From contig NZ_QLTA01000010.1 in NCBI RefSeq assembly GCF_003269065.1, positions 1 to 64,000 of the forward strand: a stretch of 64,000 nucleotides of DNA. Reading direction: 5' to 3'. A model generated the notes under the pieces. That model made no database searches, had not been told where the DNA came from, and was given only the letters and a program-made list of their open reading frames with translations. The DNA comes from Paracidovorax anthurii (GTDB lineage: Bacteria > Pseudomonadota > Gammaproteobacteria > Burkholderiales > Burkholderiaceae_C). Shown here piece by piece: positions 8,282 to 41,089 of the stretch; the first letter of the stretch is position 1, and every line of letters begins with the position of its first letter. Made by a program: the position numbers and the translations under genes.

Positions 8282-9025
8282 GATGGCCTCATCGGCGCGG
8301 CTCAGGCGGCCTGCGGCTCGCGCCACGTCGATCAAGTCCGGGCGATGCCGCGCCGTGACGATCAGCCGCTGATCGCGGCGCCAGCGCTCGATCTGCGCGT
8401 GGTGCCCGGTCAGCAAGGGGGGCGGCACCGCGTGGCCCTGCCACTCTTCGGGGCGGGTGTAGTGGGGGCAATCCAGCAATCCGTCGAGTGCGGAATTGAA
8501 GCTGTCCGATTGGTGGCTGCCCTCGTCGTTCAGGACGCCCGGCTGCAACCGCGCCACCGCATCCAGCAACGCCATGGCGGGTATCTCGCCGCCCGAGAGC
8601 ACGAAGTCGCCCAGGCTCCACTGGCAATCGACATGCGCGTCGATGAAGCGCTGATCGACCCCTTCATAGCGGCCGCAGAGCAGCACCGCCCCGTCGCCAC
8701 GGCTTGACCACTCCACGACCCCCGCATGGTCCAGCCTCCGGCCGATCGGGGAAAACAGCACGAGGGGAGCCTGCGCATCGCGCGGTTCGGCCCGGTCTGC
8801 CCGGATCGCCTGCAGGCAACGCTCGAGCGGCTCCGCCATCATCACCATGCCCGGCCCGCCGCCAAAGGGACGATCGTCCACCCGGCGGTAGTTGCCCTCG
8901 GCATGGTCGCGCGGATTCCAGAGCCGGACGTCCACCAGGCCGGACGCATAGGCACGCCGCGTGACGCCGCTCGCGAGGAACGGCGCAAAAATTTCGGGAA
9001 AGAGAGTGATGACGTCGAAGCGCAT
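8255..9025 (-). CDS. trmD: tRNA (guanine-N1)-methyltransferase
   Basis: SPOUT-class enzyme that makes m1G37 in tRNAs reading CNN and GGN codons, using S-adenosylmethionine. The start MRFDVITLFPEIF and the motifs DDRPFGGGPGMVM, LLCGRYEGVDQRF, the knot region DFVLSGGEIPAM and the C-terminal VPPPLLTGHHAQIERWRR are all diagnostic. Length 256 aa is normal. It is third in the operon, 18 bases after rimM. Its TAA overlaps the -10 box of the internal rplS promoter. Confidence 0.97.
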   Translation of the reverse strand: MRFDVITLFPEIFAPFLASGVTRRAYASGLVDVRLWNPRDHAEGNYRRVDDRPFGGGPGMVMMAEPLERCLQAIRADRAEPRDAQAPLVLFSPIGRRLDHAGVVEWSSRGDGAVLLCGRYEGVDQRFIDAHVDCQWSLGDFVLSGGEIPAMALLDAVARLQPGVLNDEGSHQSDSFNSALDGLLDCPHYTRPEEWQGHAVPPPLLTGHHAQIERWRRDQRLIVTARHRPDLIDVARAAGRLSRADEAILAKTAGLL

Positions 9026-9043
9026 GGCAGCCGGGCACCACCC

Positions 9044-9619
9044 TCAGTAGTCGGGCTGCCAGTCCACCACGATGCGGCGCCCCGCCAGATCCACCTGGTC
9101 CACGAAGGCCGACACGAACGGGATCATCCGTTCGAGCGCCTTCCCACCTTCCTGCTCCTGGGTCAGCACCAGCGTGGTCTGGGGCCCTGTCGCCAGCAAT
9201 TCACGCACCTTGCCCAGCGCAAGGCCCTCGCGATTGACGACATCGAGACCGATGAGATCCACCCAGTAATACTCATCCTCCGCGGCCGTGGGGAAGCTCG
9301 AACGGGGAATGAAAATGCGCGCGCCGCGCAAGGCATCCGCGGCATCGCGGTCATCCACGCCCTGCGCCTGCGCCACGATGGAGCCGGAATGCTCCCGCGC
9401 CTGCCGGATGGCGAGCAGCACCGTGCCGGTGAAGAAGCTTTTTGCGCCTTTCTCGCTGGGCAGCAGATACCAGCGCTTGGACGAGAAAAGCGCCTCGGGA
9501 TCGGCGCTGTGGGGCAGCACTTTGAACCATCCCTTGATCCCCCATGCATCCGCGATGCGCCCGACCTCCACCGCATCAGGGGGCAGATCGGCGGGATCCA
9601 GGACGGGAAGATTCGGCAT
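9044..9619 (-). CDS. rimM: Ribosome maturation factor RimM
   Basis: Assembly factor that binds S19 and helps fold the 30S head. The N-terminal RimM beta-barrel includes VEVGRIADAWGIKGWFKVLP (about 16-35); the PRC-barrel half includes DEYYWVDLIGLDVVNREG and the end IPFVSAFVDQVDLAGRRIVVDW, as in other RimM proteins. Length 191 aa is slightly above the usual ~175. It lies between rpsP and trmD, and a terminator-like hairpin separates it from rpsP. Confidence 0.95.
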   Translation of the reverse strand: MPNLPVLDPADLPPDAVEVGRIADAWGIKGWFKVLPHSADPEALFSSKRWYLLPSEKGAKSFFTGTVLLAIRQAREHSGSIVAQAQGVDDRDAADALRGARIFIPRSSFPTAAEDEYYWVDLIGLDVVNREGLALGKVRELLATGPQTTLVLTQEQEGGKALERMIPFVSAFVDQVDLAGRRIVVDWQPDY

Positions 9620-9641
9620 GGTCGAGAGGAATGAATCAATG

Positions 9642-9682
9642 AAAAAGGCGGGCTCCGCACGCTACAGCGACGGAACCCGCCT
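9642..9682 (-). terminator. Terminator-like hairpin between rpsP and rimM
   Basis: On the minus strand GGCGGGTTCCG and CGGAGCCCGCC form an 11-bp stem (one G-T pair) with a 13-base loop, followed by five T. It lies 45 bases after the rpsP stop and 22 bases before the rimM start. In form it is an intrinsic terminator inside the operon, so it probably works as a partial attenuator that keeps rimM-trmD below the ribosomal-protein gene. Confidence 0.75.
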
Positions 9683-9726
9683 CATCCGGGCAGTCGATCA
9701 CCCGGAAAACGCGCTGGGCGCTGTGA

Positions 9727-9978
9727 TCAGGCAGCCGCCTTGGCGGCTTGCTTGATCAGACGCTCCACGGTCGGAGACGTCTGGGCGCCAACGCCCGTCC
9801 AATACGTCAGGCGATCCTGGGCGATGCGCAGGCCTTCTTCGCCGCCCTTGGCCGTGGGGTTGTAGAAGCCCAGGCGCTCGATGAAGCGGCCATCGCGGCG
9901 CACGCGCTTGTCGGCCACGACGATGTTGAAGAACGGACGGCCCTTGGAGCCGCCGCGGGAGAGTCGAATCACGACCAT
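9727..9978 (-). CDS. rpsP: 30S ribosomal protein S16
   Basis: Small-subunit assembly protein. The sequence [40 protein letters not shown] and [16 protein letters not shown] is canonical S16. The ATG at 9978 gives 83 aa, the normal size; the frame continues upstream without family similarity. It is the first gene of the ribosomal-protein/tRNA-modification operon, about 105 bases downstream of a perfect -10 box. Confidence 0.97.
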
Positions 9979-34728: not shown

Positions 34729-35424
34729 ATGCCCTTCGATCCCCGCCTCCAGCCCCTCTCCGCCGCCGAAGCCCGCGTGCTCGGCACCCTCATGGAAAAG
34801 GCCCGCACCGTGCCGGACAGCTACCCGCTCACGCTCAACGCGGTGGTCACCGGCTGCAACCAGAAATCGAGCCGCGAGCCGGTGATGGCGCTCACCGACT
34901 CCGAGGCCCGCGAGGCGCTCGACAGCCTGCGCCAGCGCGCGCTGGCCATGGAGATCGGCGGCCAGCGCGCCACGCGCTGGGAGCACAACTTCACGCGCGC
35001 CGTGGGCGTGCCCGACCAGTCGGCCGCGCTGCTGGGCCTGCTGATGCTGCGCGGCCCGCAGACGGCCGGCGAGCTGCGCATCAACACCGAGCGCTGGCAC
35101 CGCTTCGCGGACATCTCCTCGGTGGAGGCCTTCCTCGACGAGCTGCAGTCGCGCAGCGACGAGAAGGGCGGCCCGCTGGTCGTGCTGCTGCCGCGCGCGC
35201 CGGGCGCCCGGGAGCCGCGCTGGGCGCACCTGCTGTGCGGGCCCGTGAGCGCCGAGGCGCTCACGGCCGCCTATCCCGCATCCGCCGCCCCCGCGCCTGC
35301 CCACGAGGCCGACCCGGCCCTGGCCGGGCGCGTGGCCGCGCTGGAAGCCGAGGTGGCGGCGCTGCGCCAGTCGCTCGCCGCGCTGTGCGGCCAGCTCGGG
35401 GTGCCGCTCCCCGGGCAGGAATGA
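34729..35424 (+). CDS. yceH: YceH-family (DUF480) protein
   Basis: 231 aa. The DUF480 pattern is clear: [60 protein letters not shown] and [20 protein letters not shown]. It is a pair of winged-helix domains without an assigned function. The last 40 residues form a heptad-rich helix ([20 protein letters not shown]), likely a coiled coil for dimer formation. Divergent from purN. Confidence 0.9.
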
Positions 35425-35542
35425 CGCCAACATCCGCATCAATTCATACATCCCATAAAACATATTCATGAAACTTCCTGCCCGGCCCGCAGGAAGCCTC
35501 GGATAGAAAGGCAGGTTCCATTCGACGGAACAAGGACACGAG

Positions 35543-38500
35543 ATGAGGACGAGGGATGCGGTTTTCTCCGCGCTGTGGGCTGTGCCGCTCGCGATCGCGG
35601 CCCAGGAGGTGATACCCGATTTTTACAAGGACCCGGGCATCTACCCCAACAGGGACTACGTCAACCAGGGCTTCGGCGAGCACGTCGATCCGTTCACCGG
35701 GTCCCTGCAGCTCCACTACGTGGACATGCACCTGCCGGGCAACGGCAAGTTCGACCTCAAGATCATCCGCTCCTACAACAGCGCATCGGTCGAGCCCACC
35801 AACCCCGCCACGCATGAGTCGCTGGCCGGCGTGGGCTGGAACATCCACTTCGGCAGGGTGCTGAAAAGCCGGGAAACCACCCTCTGCGGGAACAAGAACG
35901 CGCAAAGCGTCGCCGACAACCCCGTGCTGGAGCTGCCCGACGGCAGCCGGCAGCTGCTGGCCTTCACCGGCAGCACGTCGCCCCTGATGCTGACGACCCA
36001 GCGGTGGCGCGCGGACTGCATCACCTCGGGCGCCGGCGGCCTGCTGGTCACCTCGCCCGGCGGCACCCAGTACCAGATGACCCAGCTGGTGAACGTGGGC
36101 TCCGGCGTCAACCCCGTCTATGCCTGGTTCACCACCCGCATCACGGACCGCAACGGCAACTCCGCCACCATCGCCTATGCCGCGGAGGCCTCCCCGCAGA
36201 TCTCCGGCGTCACCACCAGCGACGGGCGCTCCGTGGGCTTCTCGTACGCGGACAGCGGCCTGGCCAGCCGCCGCATCACCGCCATCTCCAGCGCCGGGCA
36301 GACGTTCAGCTACGGCTACCAGGCCATCAGCGGATACACCGGCAAGTACCACCTCACCGCCGTCACCCGGCCCGGGGGCACCGCCTGGAACTACGAGTAC
36401 AACGGCAACCTGAACAGCGCCCCGGGCAGCCACGTGGTCCGCCGCGTCATGCATCCGGAGGGTGGAAGCATCGCCTACACCTACGGCTTCGTCTATTTCG
36501 ACAACCAGGCCAACCCCGCCAGCCGCTCCACCGTGGTGACCGGCAAGACGCGCAGCACCGGCGGCACGTGGTCGTTCAGCTACGCGCCGGGCGCGCCCGG
36601 CAGCTACGACACCACCACGGTCAACGCACCCGACGGCACCACGGTCTATCGCCACATCGGCCCCAACTATTCCAGCTCGGGCACGGTGTGGATGGTGGGG
36701 CTGCTGGCCTCCAAGGCGATCGGCGGCCTGCAGACGGAGACCTACACCTGGGGCAAACAGAAGATCTCCAGCGAGAACAACTTCCGCCCCGGGGCCTTCG
36801 TGCTCAAGGTGGATGCGGGCGAGGTCAACGCCCCGCTGCTCACCCAGAAGACCATCGTGCGCGACGGCGCCTCGCACACCACCAGCTACTCGGGCTTCGA
36901 CGGCTACGGCAACCCCGGCACGGTGACCGAATCGGGGCCGCAATCGGGCAACCGCACGTCGCAGCTCACGTATTACGTCAATCCATCCAAGTGGATCCTC
37001 CACCAGCTGCAGAACGACAACCGCTCGGGCGCCCAGGTCTCCCGGACCTTCGATGCCAACGGCAACATGACGTCGATCACCCGGGACGGCGTCACCACCC
37101 GCCATGCCTACGACAGCCAGGGCAACATCGCCTCCACCACCTTCCCCCGCGGCGTCACGCACACCTACGGCTCCTACAAGCGCGGCATCGCCCAGGCGGA
37201 GCAGCAGCCCGAGGGGATCTCGATCTCCCGCACGGTCAGCGACGCGGGCAACGTGACCTCCGAGACGAATGGCGGCGGCCAGACCTTCGGCTACGCCTAC
37301 GACGGCCTCAACCGGCTCATCTCCGTGGCCTACCCGACGGGCAACCCCGTCACCCTCTCGTACGGCGCCGCGTCCCGGATCGTGGGCCGCGGCATGCTGT
37401 CCGAGACCACCCAGTACGACGGCTTCGGCAACGCGATCTCCATCAACACCGGCGGCATCGTCCGGTCCTTCGCGGTGGACGCGCTGGGCCGCAAGGTCTT
37501 CGAATCCAACCCCGGCACCAGCGCGGGCACGGCCTACCAGTACGACGTGCTCGGCCGCCCGGTGCGCATCGCGAACGCCGACGGCACGGCGCGCATGATC
37601 AGCTACGGCGCGGGCACGCAGACGGTGACGGACGAGCGCGGCAAGGCCACCACGCACGTCTACCGCGCCTACGGAGACCCCGACAGGCGGTTCCTGATGG
37701 CGGTTTCCACCGCGGAGCCCGCCACCAACCTCACCATCGCCCGCAACAGCCGCGACCTCGTCACGGACATCGTCCAGGCGGGGGTGATGCGCAGCTACGG
37801 CTACAACGGCAACTACTACCTCTCGTCCGCCACCCACCCCGAAAGCGGAACCACCAGCTACGGAAGGGATGCCGCGGGCAACATGACCTCGCGCAGCGCC
37901 GGCACGCTGGGCACCATTGCCTACACCTACGACGGCCAGAACCGCCTGCGGTCCATCACCTATCCGGGATCGACCGGCAACGTGGCGCATGCCTACGACG
38001 GCGCCCACCGGCTGATGAACACCTCGTCCCCCGACGCCAGCCGCAGCTTCGCCTACGACGGCAATGGCAACATCGTGCAGGAAAACCTGAACACCGCGGG
38101 CATCTCGTGGAGCGCCCGGTACGGCTACGACGGCAACGACCGCCTGACGTCCATCACCTACCCCCGCTCCGGGAGCACGGTGACCTACGGGCTCGACGGC
38201 CTGGGCCGGCCCACCTCGGTGTCCGGCTACGTCAACAGCGTGGCGTACTGGCCCTCGGGGCAGATCCAGCGCATCGCCTATGCCAATGGCGTCCAGTCGG
38301 ACTACGGGCAGCACCCGCGGCTCTGGGCCAGCTCCTTCGCCACCTCCCGGTCCGGGAGCTACTTCCACCAGTCGGCCTACACCTACGATGGCGCCGGCAA
38401 CCTCATGGGCATCAGCGACTCCGTCGATCCCCAGTACACCCGGATGCTGGGGTACGACGGCGTGAACCGCCTGACCACCCTGTCCACCCCGAACGGCAGC

Positions 38501-38926
38501 GGCACCATCGCCTACAGCGGCTCCGGCAACATCACCAGCCAGCGCGTCGGCAGCGAGCAGCTCAACTACCAGTACGACGGCAGCAACCGCCTCACCGCGC
38601 TGAACGCCGTGCCCGGCGAACTCTCCACCACCTACGCCTACGACGCCACCGGCAACCTCGTCGCCGGCGCGGGCCGGACCTTCCAGTACGACGCCGTTCC
38701 CAACCTGCGGTGCATCGACTGCGGCAATCCCGACGCGCGCGTGCAGTTCGAGTACGACGGCGACCAGAAGCGCACCACGATCCTCCGGGGCACCACCAGG
38801 ACCCATGAATTCCACGGTGTCCACGGCAACCTGCTGGCCGACTACACCCCCGGCACTCCCGGAAAGCTGACGGAATACATCTACCTCCACGGCAAGCGCA
38901 TCGCGCAGAAGGAGAGCACGCAATGA
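35543..38926 (+). CDS. Secreted RHS/YD-repeat protein, core ORF of a split toxin
   Basis: 1127 aa. A short signal peptide (MRTRDAVFSALWAVPLAIAA) is followed by an RHS N-terminal part (GEHVDPFTGSLQLHYVDMHL, KIIRSYNSASVEPTNP) and about 800 residues of YD-type repeats (for example GYAYDGLNRLISVAYPTGN, YGYDGNDRLTSITYPRSG, AYDATGNLVAGAGRTFQYD), which in known RHS proteins form a beta-cocoon around a toxin. It has no PAAR or VgrG domain, so export is probably by Sec and not by a type VI spike. It ends at EYIYLHGKRIAQKE, just before where the conserved RHS core normally continues, and its TGA overlaps the next ATG (ATGA). Confidence 0.9.
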   Translation: MRTRDAVFSALWAVPLAIAAQEVIPDFYKDPGIYPNRDYVNQGFGEHVDPFTGSLQLHYVDMHLPGNGKFDLKIIRSYNSASVEPTNPATHESLAGVGWNIHFGRVLKSRETTLCGNKNAQSVADNPVLELPDGSRQLLAFTGSTSPLMLTTQRWRADCITSGAGGLLVTSPGGTQYQMTQLVNVGSGVNPVYAWFTTRITDRNGNSATIAYAAEASPQISGVTTSDGRSVGFSYADSGLASRRITAISSAGQTFSYGYQAISGYTGKYHLTAVTRPGGTAWNYEYNGNLNSAPGSHVVRRVMHPEGGSIAYTYGFVYFDNQANPASRSTVVTGKTRSTGGTWSFSYAPGAPGSYDTTTVNAPDGTTVYRHIGPNYSSSGTVWMVGLLASKAIGGLQTETYTWGKQKISSENNFRPGAFVLKVDAGEVNAPLLTQKTIVRDGASHTTSYSGFDGYGNPGTVTESGPQSGNRTSQLTYYVNPSKWILHQLQNDNRSGAQVSRTFDANGNMTSITRDGVTTRHAYDSQGNIASTTFPRGVTHTYGSYKRGIAQAEQQPEGISISRTVSDAGNVTSETNGGGQTFGYAYDGLNRLISVAYPTGNPVTLSYGAASRIVGRGMLSETTQYDGFGNAISINTGGIVRSFAVDALGRKVFESNPGTSAGTAYQYDVLGRPVRIANADGTARMISYGAGTQTVTDERGKATTHVYRAYGDPDRRFLMAVSTAEPATNLTIARNSRDLVTDIVQAGVMRSYGYNGNYYLSSATHPESGTTSYGRDAAGNMTSRSAGTLGTIAYTYDGQNRLRSITYPGSTGNVAHAYDGAHRLMNTSSPDASRSFAYDGNGNIVQENLNTAGISWSARYGYDGNDRLTSITYPRSGSTVTYGLDGLGRPTSVSGYVNSVAYWPSGQIQRIAYANGVQSDYGQHPRLWASSFATSRSGSYFHQSAYTYDGAGNLMGISDSVDPQYTRMLGYDGVNRLTTLSTPNGSGTIAYSGSGNITSQRVGSEQLNYQYDGSNRLTALNAVPGELSTTYAYDATGNLVAGAGRTFQYDAVPNLRCIDCGNPDARVQFEYDGDQKRTTILRGTTRTHEFHGVHGNLLADYTPGTPGKLTEYIYLHGKRIAQKESTQ

Positions 38927-39885
38927 ACCCCGCATCCTTCGTCGGCCCCTGGGGCCGCCTGCTGCGCCGCCTGGCGCTCCTCGCCACGCTGCTCGTCGGC
39001 GCGGGCGGCGCCTGGGCGCAGGCCGTCACGGTCACCTTCTTCCACAACGACATGGCCGGCACGCCCCTGCTGGCCACCGACGCCGGCGGCGCCGTCGTCT
39101 GGAAGGAAAACTACCTGCCCTACGGCTACCGCCAGCAGGCGGACGCCGCCAGCGCCGGCAACCGGCTCTGGTTCATGGGCAAGCCCCATGACCCCTCCAC
39201 CGGCCTGACCTACATGGGCGCGCGCTACTACATGCCCCTGCTGGGCCGGTTCACGGGCATGGACCCCAAGGAGGTCGTGCCCGAGCAGCCGCACAGCTTC
39301 AACCGCTATGCCTACGGCAACAACAACCCCTACCGCTACGTGGACCCCGACGGCAAGATCGCGGAAACGGTATGGGACGCCTTCAACCTCTCGCTGGGCT
39401 TCCAGAGCCTGGTGGGCAACGTCCGCGCGGGCAACTGGAGCGGCGCCGCGATAGACGGCGTGGGCATCGCGGTGGACGCCGCCGCCACGGCCCTGCCCGG
39501 GATTCCGGGGGGCATGGGGGCGGGGATCGCGGCGTATCGGGGGAGTGCGTTGGCGGCGAAGGGGGCTGCCGGTGAGGCGCGGTTCATCAATGGCGTGAAA
39601 GTGACGGACCGCGCGACAGGCAATGTGCTGCAAGGCACCGTCGATCTGAAGCCAACGCTTGAGCGCATTGCTGCCGGCAAGAGTTTCCCTCATCGGAACG
39701 ATGGCTCGGTGTTCGGGAACAAGGAAGGGCTGCTACCGCAACAACCGCGTGGGTATTACACGGAGTACGTGCATCCGACGCCAGGCGTTAATGGTCCTGG
39801 TCCCCAGCGCATCGTGACCGGGCAGGGTGGAGAAGTTTTCTATAGTCCGGATCACTACGGTACGTTTATCCGGATGAATCCGTAA
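38923..39885 (+). CDS. RHS core end with C-terminal guanyl-specific ribonuclease (barnase/RNase T1-like) toxin
   Basis: 320 aa. A second signal peptide (about 1-33, LLRRLALLATLLVGAGGAWA) precedes the missing RHS core end: VTFFHNDMAGTPLLATDAGG, YMGARYYMPLLGRFTGMDP, NRYAYGNNNPYRYVDPDG with the DPDG cleavage-type motif (141-144). After a Gly/Ala linker, residues 222-320 match the microbial RNase fold: SFPHRNDGSVFGNKEGLLP, GYYTEYVHPTPG (Glu281), PQRIVTG (Arg296), SPDHYGTF (His311), the Glu-Arg-His set of barnase and RNase Sa. GC content drops in the toxin part. A barstar-like gene follows after 11 bases. Confidence 0.88.
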   Translation: MNPASFVGPWGRLLRRLALLATLLVGAGGAWAQAVTVTFFHNDMAGTPLLATDAGGAVVWKENYLPYGYRQQADAASAGNRLWFMGKPHDPSTGLTYMGARYYMPLLGRFTGMDPKEVVPEQPHSFNRYAYGNNNPYRYVDPDGKIAETVWDAFNLSLGFQSLVGNVRAGNWSGAAIDGVGIAVDAAATALPGIPGGMGAGIAAYRGSALAAKGAAGEARFINGVKVTDRATGNVLQGTVDLKPTLERIAAGKSFPHRNDGSVFGNKEGLLPQQPRGYYTEYVHPTPGVNGPGPQRIVTGQGGEVFYSPDHYGTFIRMNP

Positions 39886-39896
39886 TCGAGGCAGAA

Positions 39897-40325
39897 ATGG
39901 TTACACAGAGAGCATTCGAGTATGTGGAGTCGCAGAACTCCATCTTCAATGAAGACCATTTCATACTGAAAGTCCCTGCGGGGATTGGCTCCAAGACCGA
40001 ATTGCTGGCAGTTCTGGCAAGTGCAGGCCACTTCCCTGAATACTTTGGCGGAAACTGGGATGCCTTGGAAGACTGCCTGCGTGATCTCAGTTGGATCAGC
40101 CAAAAGGAGGTTGTGATTCTGCATAACGACCTCCCGTTGCAGGGTACTCCTGCGGATTGCCGTATTTACTTGGAAGTACTTCAGACGGTGCTTGCCGATT
40201 GGGCGGAAATCGCACGACCGAATGCTGCCGAGCCACCTTCCGAGTGGGCATACGTCGATCACGACCTTCGCATCGTTTTCCCACTGGAGGCAGAGAAAAC
40301 TGTGGCGAAATTGCGGGGAACGTGA
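39897..40325 (+). CDS. Barstar-family immunity protein
   Basis: 142 aa, predicted cytoplasmic inhibitor of the RNase encoded just upstream. The barstar core is clear: LKVPAGIGSKTELLAVLASA, GHFPEYFGGNWDALEDCLRD, LSWISQKEVVILHNDLPL. In barstar this FGxNWDALxDxL helix supplies the Asp that fills the RNase active site. It starts 11 bases after the toxin stop, same strand, with base composition lower in GC than its surroundings, a usual sign of toxin-immunity cassettes exchanged between strains. ATG at 39897 (MVTQRAFEYVE). Confidence 0.9.
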   Translation: MVTQRAFEYVESQNSIFNEDHFILKVPAGIGSKTELLAVLASAGHFPEYFGGNWDALEDCLRDLSWISQKEVVILHNDLPLQGTPADCRIYLEVLQTVLADWAEIARPNAAEPPSEWAYVDHDLRIVFPLEAEKTVAKLRGT

Positions 40326-40430
40326 GATAGGGCTTTGTGCAACAAAGCCATTGGATGGGACCTGAAGAAGGTCTGCATACATCCCCAATGCCGCTGCTTG
40401 GCGCACGCGTGAAGTGAAGAAATTCCAACC

Positions 40431-40874
40431 ATGAAACTCCCCCTCGCGATTCTCGCCACCACCCTCCTGGCCTGCCATCCCGCCGGGGCCCAATCCACGG
40501 CGCCCGCCGAGGCAATCTTCTCCCAGTACCAGTCCCGCGAGCGCTCGTTCGACCCCGGCATCGCGGACCTCTACTGCGACACCGCGCGCATCCGCAATGT
40601 CCGGATCTATCCGAACGGGCAGCAGCGCGCCGTTGAAGTGCCCGCCGCGCGCTACCAGCAGATGATCCGCGATGCCATGCCCCTGGCCCGGGAGAAGGGC
40701 GACTACAGCACCTATTCCGCCGTGGCGTTCACCCCCGAGGGAGCCGGTGTGCGGGTGACCGCCAGCCGCTACTCGGTGCTTCGGCAGTACACCAGCCCCA
40801 TCTCCCTGCTGATCGGCGCCTGCCAGGGCGGCCGCTGGGCCATTCTGGAAGAGTTGAGCCAATCCAGGCCCTGA
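40431..40874 (+). CDS. Small exported protein of unknown function
   Basis: 147 aa. The N-terminus MKLPLAILATTLLACHPAGA is a signal sequence; LLAC fits a lipobox (Cys15), but a type I cleavage after AGA is equally possible. The mature part (FDPGIADLYCDTARIRNVRI, VEVPAARYQQMIRDAMPLAR, EGAGVRVTASRYSVLRQYTS) has two Cys that could form a disulfide. I recognise no family. High-GC codon use matches the chromosome, so it probably marks the edge of the RHS island. Confidence 0.7.
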   Translation: MKLPLAILATTLLACHPAGAQSTAPAEAIFSQYQSRERSFDPGIADLYCDTARIRNVRIYPNGQQRAVEVPAARYQQMIRDAMPLAREKGDYSTYSAVAFTPEGAGVRVTASRYSVLRQYTSPISLLIGACQGGRWAILEELSQSRP

Positions 40875-41089
40875 TGGCCGGTGGCCGGCCCGTCCATCCC
40901 TGCGGATTCGCCCTCGTTCAACGCCACGCCCGCCCAGGGGTGTCGCTCCCCGGACACGAGCAAAAAGCACGACCGTGCTACAACCACCGGCATCGCATCG
41001 GCAGGCCCGTCCCGCCGCATCCGGCGCCCTCCTCCAGGGACGTTGATCGCGGCGCGGAGGGCCTGCCGGTCATCACACGGAGACACCGC

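Follow-up and report, generated by a model that had tools for sequence, protein, structure and literature searches.

A Split RHS Toxin Locus in Paracidovorax anthurii: Two Genes with Signal-Peptide-Like Starts, a Ribonuclease Tip and a Barstar-Family Partner

Introduction

The RHS shells described so far consist either of one chain that closes around its toxin or of the TcB/TcC pair. Can such a shell also be closed by a second exported chain that brings the toxin with it? The question is raised by a locus of Paracidovorax anthurii in a stretch of 64,000 nucleotides (NCBI RefSeq assembly GCF_003269065.1, contig NZ_QLTA01000010.1, positions 1 to 64,000; the window in what follows), where an RHS core is divided between two overlapping open reading frames, ORF1 and ORF2, with a barstar-family gene directly downstream. 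A first reading made from the letters of the window alone, the sequence-only reading, had proposed a real two-gene exported RHS toxin with a ribonuclease (RNase) tip and barstar immunity. Judged by the sequence comparisons reported here, that proposal appears to hold, and the locus is probably a two-component exported RHS polymorphic toxin. The pieces are separate genes with their own starts and signal-peptide-like N-termini; the first has nearly all of the YD barrel, and the second has the rest of it with the plug, a linker and the tip. A barstar gene follows, and the layout is conserved in relatives that carry different tips.

The Two Genes and Their Export Signals

ORF1 (35543..38926, plus strand) encodes a protein of 1127 residues, a putatively exported RHS/YD barrel, or shell, without the last strands and the C-terminal plug. 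Its family matches are RHS_repeat (7.3e-42), DUF6531 and RHS_core, the last covering part of the RHS core. Residues 1-20 (35543..35602) form a probable signal peptide, MRTRDAVFSALWAVPLAIAA/QEV, judged by eye. ORF2 (38923..39885, plus strand, 320 residues) encodes the presumed exported plug-toxin protein, and residues 1-32 (38923..39018) form a second probable signal peptide, with a hydrophobic 12-mer of mean 2.26, three Lys or Arg residues ahead of it and a presumed cut at AWA/QA. Signal peptides, like the ORF2 cut site, were called throughout from hydrophobicity and the residues before the presumed cut, by eye.

The stop of ORF1 overlaps the start of ORF2 in the sequence ATGA (38923..38926), and a Shine-Dalgarno-like AAGGAG for ORF2 lies within the 3′ end of ORF1 (38909..38914), 8 nucleotides upstream of the ATG. 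The product of ORF1 ends in ...EYIYLHGKRIAQKESTQ, and after the signal-peptide-like stretch of ORF2 (residues 1-32) comes VTFFHNDMAGTPLLATDAGG. The cut, its coordinates, the overlap and the second signal peptide are thus as the sequence-only reading had described them, the last as far as hydrophobicity and inspection allow. A 4-base overlap is also seen in Delftia, Ramlibacter, G395, Alteromonas mediterranea and G1414.

Position of the Cut on Solved RHS Structures

An AlphaFold2 model of ORF1 (predicted local distance difference test score, pLDDT, 82; predicted template modelling score, pTM, 0.76) is a barrel that ends on its last strand, residues 1118-1126, and in a structural comparison by VIA-align it aligns with RHS, teneurin and Tc shells. 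On structure 9ifo the ORF1 model ends at residue 2037 and residue 37 of ORF2 begins at 2041, so the two chains map contiguously. On 7pq5, for which the published limits are 420-1262 for the barrel and 1263-1357 for the C-terminal plug in the available account (PMC8636562), ORF1 ends at 1219, and residue 42 of ORF2 aligns weakly (E 3e-4) to 1243. The residue ends are approximate, since many of the RHS and teneurin alignment rows have root-mean-square deviations of 15-26 Å over 600-840 residues, perhaps from a differently bent barrel. The cut is close to the point where barrel gives way to plug in solved RHS structures, and by its sequence matches ORF2 holds what is left of the barrel strands together with the protease plug and the toxin.

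Plug, Tip and Immunity Gene

The RHS closure, that is the last barrel strands and the C-terminal plug with its aspartyl-protease region, occupies residues 36-144 of ORF2 (39028..39354, plus strand) and includes D114 and D141. Within it residues 38-68 match Pfam RHS and residues 64-144 match Rhs_assc_core (TIGR03696, 4.2e-20). Equivalents of both aspartates are present in all 18 ORF2s examined for them, a set that includes Alteromonas and leaves out Ramlibacter and G1414. A hydrophobic pre-toxin linker follows (residues 145-242, 39355..39648, plus strand; PF15520 match at 133-210), and in the alignment it is similar in relatives bearing other tips.

The tip itself (residues 243-320, 39649..39882, plus strand) is an RNase Sa-type ribonuclease domain by its PF00545 match (residues 244-318, E 1.4e-13). 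Among the matches to solved structures that were listed, the best 60 of 92, the leading ones are RNase Sa-type guanyl RNases (1py3_A at 2.1e-17; RNase Sa entries at about 1e-15 to 2e-14), and binase-type chains are far weaker, at about 0.02. The sequence-only reading had called the tip barnase/RNase T1-type; RNase was right, and the type is corrected to RNase Sa-like. The residues it had singled out, Glu281, Arg296 and His311, are retained in the alignment, where by counting they fall on RNase Sa positions 54, 69 and 85, which we take to be its catalytic residues.

The barstar-family immunity gene (39897..40325, plus strand, 142 residues) starts 11 bases past the ORF2 stop, as had been noticed from the letters; its product matches Barstar PF01337 at E 2.1e-17 and 63.3 bits (cut-off 23.4), and no signal peptide was seen on it. 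The G+C content is 67.7% in ORF1 and 70.8% in the signal peptide and closure of ORF2, and it is 58.8% in the tip (39561-39885) and 52.9% in the barstar gene. The lower values fit the expectation for an exchanged cassette. Tips vary among the relatives, as in polymorphic RHS toxins with an adjacent immunity gene.

The traits of RHS/YD polymorphic toxins are present in the locus: a YD-repeat barrel, an Rhs-associated core with two Asp motifs, and a variable tip with an immunity gene. Core and tip on one polypeptide is a usual RHS trait rather than a defining one, and TcB/TcC break it; here they are on separate genes. The Pfam search gave no PAAR or VgrG match in the RHS proteins of the window, which have signal-peptide-like starts instead. 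It likewise matched no anchor module in the two chains, and no lipobox was seen by eye.

Split and Fused Relatives

Relatives of ORF1 were defined as matches at E ≤ 1e-80 in sampled genomes, with the source genome included and overlapping draws; at most two candidates per genome were scored in the listed rows of each scan, so that further copies may be missed. Matches were found in 6 of 399 genomes of the family, 10 of 399 of the order, 8 of 369 of the class and 2 of 398 of the phylum, the source genome being counted each time, which makes 23 genomes altogether. The sequence-only reading had left room for a related set in which every gene is fused, and this is not what was found. The split layout occurs in 14 of the 23 (the source genome, G111, G296, G395, G399, G400, G475, G653, G815, G824, G889, G979, G993 and G1414) and a fused gene in six (G413, G506, G582, G641, G785 and G833). 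Three are unclassified, G441 because it is disrupted and G612 and G1000 because of contig ends. G815 was scored as split despite an interrupted ORF1 frame, and G993 was scored as split with its N-terminal 145 residues unmatched.

Other Acidovorax genomes, where the sequence-only reading would have looked for the same split, do not supply it: within the genus 1 of 17 genomes matched ORF1 at E ≤ 1e-60, namely the source genome. Split relatives come from other families and from other orders within the class, and the named records of Delftia and Pseudoduganella are split. The layout is not an Acidovorax trait, and the division of the gene is not a mutation. Ramlibacter has the end of ORF1 and a second signal-peptide-like ORF on a contig that stops ahead of the closure, and it was not scored as split.

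A distant relative is found on the Alteromonas mediterranea UM8 plasmid NZ_CP013929, with two separately annotated genes that overlap by 4 bases and have signal-peptide-like starts. Its shell is 27% identical to ORF1 over 640 columns (4e-45) and its plug region 34%; the matched part of the shell ends at the same strand as ORF1 and a tail follows. This shell was below detection at 1e-60 in the plasmid search and was found through its plug. Five of the 45 plasmid matches were opened, and they comprise one split locus (H13), three single long RHS genes (H1, H3 and H5) and one gene starting inside the core (H32).

In a tree of 25 rows four changes of the split label are required with midpoint rooting only, and in a tree of 18 rows one clade holds 11 split loci and one fused gene. 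Either order, split first or fused first, is compatible with the midpoint-rooted tree.

Variation in Tip Genes

The nearest downstream ORF2 begins -4 to 743 nucleotides from the ORF1 stop. The N-termini of 18 second genes were tabulated, with Ramlibacter included and Alteromonas and G1414 left out, and all 18 are signal-peptide-like by hydrophobicity. In G653 the order is reversed, with ORF2 followed by a putative immunity gene and then ORF1. Two genomes have two tip genes to one shell. G296 has two tandem ORF2s that are identical at 143 of 148 positions in the signal peptide and closure and at 42 of 151 in the remainder; G979 has one ORF2 on either side of ORF1, with corresponding values of 107 of 131 and 34 of 143. 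Three of ten scanned ORF2s have an immunoglobulin (Ig), NBR1-Ig or beta-propeller module between signal peptide and closure. Seven ORF1s (G399, G111, G979, G1000, G824, G889 and G993) continue past the barrel into other sequence, in which there is no plug. Across 15 loci the distances between ORF1s correlate strongly with those between ORF2s (Mantel r 0.82; 0 of 5000 permutations). The set omits Ramlibacter, Alteromonas and G1414, and from G296 and G979 it takes only the first copy.

Further tip genes were seen in passing. In L066 (reverse complement, 8918-9973) a signal-peptide-like ORF with a divergent RHS closure and a tip has no ORF1-like gene in about 9 kb upstream and is an orphan tip gene. 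In L034 (5493-6209 and 7534-7896) each of the two tandem tip genes is preceded by an ORF that ends in IPTLSQWG...RATSKRG, an ending that resembles the IPTL-CTERM sorting signal. Delftia (L022, 14050-14343) has a second closure, decayed and with stops, about 4 kb past the intact one. On the Alteromonas plasmid (L089, 8384-9064) a displaced tip cassette without a signal peptide, with an annotated Imm27 gene, lies downstream of the split pair, so that both cassette types stand there side by side.

Comparison with Known Systems

In the open-licence literature no account was found that describes the split as a system; the parallels there are the Tc toxins and Bcn-A. In Tc (ABC) toxins, such as YenB with YenC1, YenC2 and YenC3, the RHS shell consists of two polypeptides, and the TcC chain carries a hypervariable toxin and the end that cleaves itself; one B chain serves several C genes, even distant ones, in the available account (PMC11067744). 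The Tc case shows that an RHS shell can function when made of two chains, with the C chain exchangeable. The sequence-only reading had stated that RHS toxins are normally one polypeptide, which stands as the usual trait but overlooks this shell. The likeness to the window pair is one of gene content, two genes with plug and toxin on the second chain; a like assembly is what we infer. The differences are that the cut is elsewhere, that both chains of the window have signal-peptide-like starts, and that TcC is described as bringing about 680 residues ahead of the toxin (PMC11067744), whereas ORF2 has only about 110 of the core. No PF18276 match, which would mark a TcA-type gene, was found in the genome, and control genomes are likewise without one.

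Bcn-A of Xanthomonas perforans comprises a large RHS gene, ORFA, of 1398 residues, a small gene, ORF4, of 290 residues and then an immunity gene. ORF4 is described with a signal peptide, a likeness to WapA, RhsA and insecticidal complexes, and hydrophobic helices at 148-198. Killing was abolished without ORFA or without ORF4, xpsD was needed, and the activity was found in the supernatant, according to the sections available (PMC7259588). Compared by this description, the layout of a large RHS gene, a small signal-peptide gene with RHS likeness and an immunity gene is that of the window locus. The authors read ORF4 as a delivery or processing helper; the immunity protein is described as without known homologue, and the available sections do not mention a signal peptide on ORFA (PMC7259588).

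The Rhs effectors of type VI secretion systems (P. laumondii Rhs1, RhsP, Tse5 and RhsA) resemble the window pair in having a barrel and a C-terminal plug ahead of the toxin, and Rhs1 has two DPLGL motifs and an encaged toxin. They are single polypeptides with an N-terminus for loading onto the secretion system, as far as described (PMC8636562), whereas the window has the export-like starts given above. Bacterial teneurin-like proteins have a YD shell, a polymorphic C-terminal domain and, in many, predicted Sec signals (PMC13018210), and the contiguous mapping of both ORFs on 9ifo is a likeness to them. They differ in being one chain, for which lipoprotein or cell-wall anchoring is predicted in the portion of the report at hand (PMC13018210), and the window has two genes.

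RNase Sa is a free secreted enzyme. The Streptomyces RNase Sa/barstar pair is like the window in its sequence, with the best matches among those listed and the aligned Glu, Arg and His residues, and in having a Barstar-family partner. It is unlike the window in that the RNase is here the tip of an RHS plug protein.

Proposed Mechanism

Sec would carry both ORF1 and ORF2 through the inner membrane, and the two would fold as a unit on the periplasmic side, where the first strands of ORF2 would pair with the edge strand left free in the ORF1 barrel. The plug of ORF2 would then close one end of the barrel with the RNase inside, and its aspartyl protease would cut after the second DPxG motif and free the RNase within the shell. 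Type II secretion would be the most likely way out for the complex, and the RNase would be delivered to competing bacteria, with the barstar shielding the cytosol of the producer from unexported ORF2 and from attack by kin. Such a release is plausible because two GspD genes of the genome pass the cut-off and Bcn-A activity was lost in an xpsD mutant.

With plug and toxin on a gene of their own, a new tip could be acquired while the shell gene stays as it is, and several tips could share a shell. A cut near the barrel/plug boundary, with both pieces exported-looking, means that closing the shell and loading the toxin can be separated and tested. The two-gene layout would be a route to toxin diversity without in-frame recombination, it would account for the loci in which a single shell has two tip genes, and different toxins may be loaded into the same shell. 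It also offers a reading of the need of Bcn-A for a second small exported RHS-like gene. More tentatively, and with somewhat less than even confidence, the locus can be seen as one case of a widespread ‘cartridge’ RHS toxin, in which a barrel with an open end is exported and receives plug-toxins from separate genes once outside the cytoplasm, with several warheads at once and new ones won by gene addition; the need for Bcn-A ORF4 would be its first experimental trace.

Weighing the Alternatives

Several points weigh against a two-component exported toxin of this kind. Assembly of ORF1 with ORF2 in the periplasm is the most likely course, and it is, like the secretion route and the target, what we infer from gene content and published parallels. 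The AlphaFold2 model of ORF2 is poor (pLDDT 42), so the fold of its plug rests on sequence matches. The Mantel correlation is expected from shared descent alone. G785, a fused one-chain gene, falls inside the main split clade. G532 has a gene with a signal-peptide-like start and a closure, yet about 9 kb upstream of it show no ORF1-like gene and the genome gave no match to ORF1 at E ≤ 1e-80, so that an ORF2-type gene can exist without an ORF1-type shell. Bcn-A differs in having two small genes in between, of which its own ORF2 is needed and its ORF3 partly, and in a homology model (templates of 10-22% identity) the C-terminus of ORFA itself caps the barrel, as reported in the available sections (PMC7259588). 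Bcn-A may be an experimentally tested member of the two-gene family of the window, with ORF4 as its plug-toxin. This is a lead only, because its authors model the ORFA C-terminus as the cap and the comparison is by description.

The same two-chain assembly could be displayed at the surface and delivered by contact, or be aimed at eukaryotic grazers and not at bacteria, an unlikely course that deserves some weight. The Ig, NBR1-Ig and beta-propeller modules on three of the ten scanned ORF2s and the long tails on several ORF1s suggest adhesion, and bacterial teneurin-like toxins are thought to be surface-exposed, according to the part of the report available (PMC13018210). The chains of the window, however, have neither a matched anchor module nor a visible lipobox, and the GspD genes, together with the activity of Bcn-A in the supernatant and its need for type II secretion in the published account (PMC7259588), speak for release.

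It is doubtful, though a matter of some substance, that ORF2 is a free-standing exported RNase bacteriocin, its RHS segment being a remnant or a self-folding protease and ORF1 a separate adhesin or toxin-less shell. ORF2 does have a start of its own behind an AAGGAG that resembles a ribosome site, its N-terminus is signal-peptide-like, G532 lacks a detected ORF1, and other ORFs lie between ORF1 and ORF2 in G111 and G296. Yet all 18 ORF2s examined carry the same barrel-plus-plug segment with both aspartates, which closes the barrel in solved structures, none of the split ORF1s was found to have a plug in cis, and the killing by Bcn-A needed both kinds of gene in the account at hand (PMC7259588).

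ORF2 could also be a spare C-terminal cassette as in classical RHS loci, displaced and silent unless recombination places it in a full gene; this reading is disfavoured and quite improbable. Displaced cassettes do occur beside fused or broken genes of relatives and downstream of the Alteromonas pair, and the low-G+C tip and barstar gene resemble an exchanged cassette. But the eight displaced closures (four in G441, two in G641, one each in G413 and G545) are by eye without a signal-peptide-like start, which is why this reading is disfavoured, and four of them have no start codon ahead, two of these four lying at a contig edge. The split ORF2s do have a start and a signal-peptide-like N-terminus, and the ORF1 of the window has no tip of its own to replace.

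A frameshift, nonsense mutation or assembly error in an ordinary fused gene is hardly credible: fused genes exist in 6 of the 23 genomes, G785 inside the split clade among them, but a correctly placed signal peptide, the point that the sequence-only reading had raised, cannot arise by point change, and the explanation is rejected because relatives, including Delftia, Pseudoduganella and G1414, show the same split, which recurs in 14 of the 23 genomes with the nearest downstream ORF2 at -4 to 743 nucleotides and once in reversed order.

Neighbouring Genes

Directly 3′ of the immunity gene, 40431-40874 encodes a protein of 147 residues with a signal-peptide-like start and no Pfam or NCBIfam match at E ≤ 1. 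Opposite ORF1, a 1163-residue open frame on the minus strand (35444-38935) is probably a shadow of the high G+C content. The RHS locus as a whole (35425-41089) sits between the gene at 34729-35424 and a downstream gene that we take to be acyl-CoA dehydrogenase-like. These flanking genes adjoin in nine of the nine congeneric loci examined (ten other genomes matched, and one gave no locus), and the RHS operon is therefore seen as an insertion at a conserved junction.

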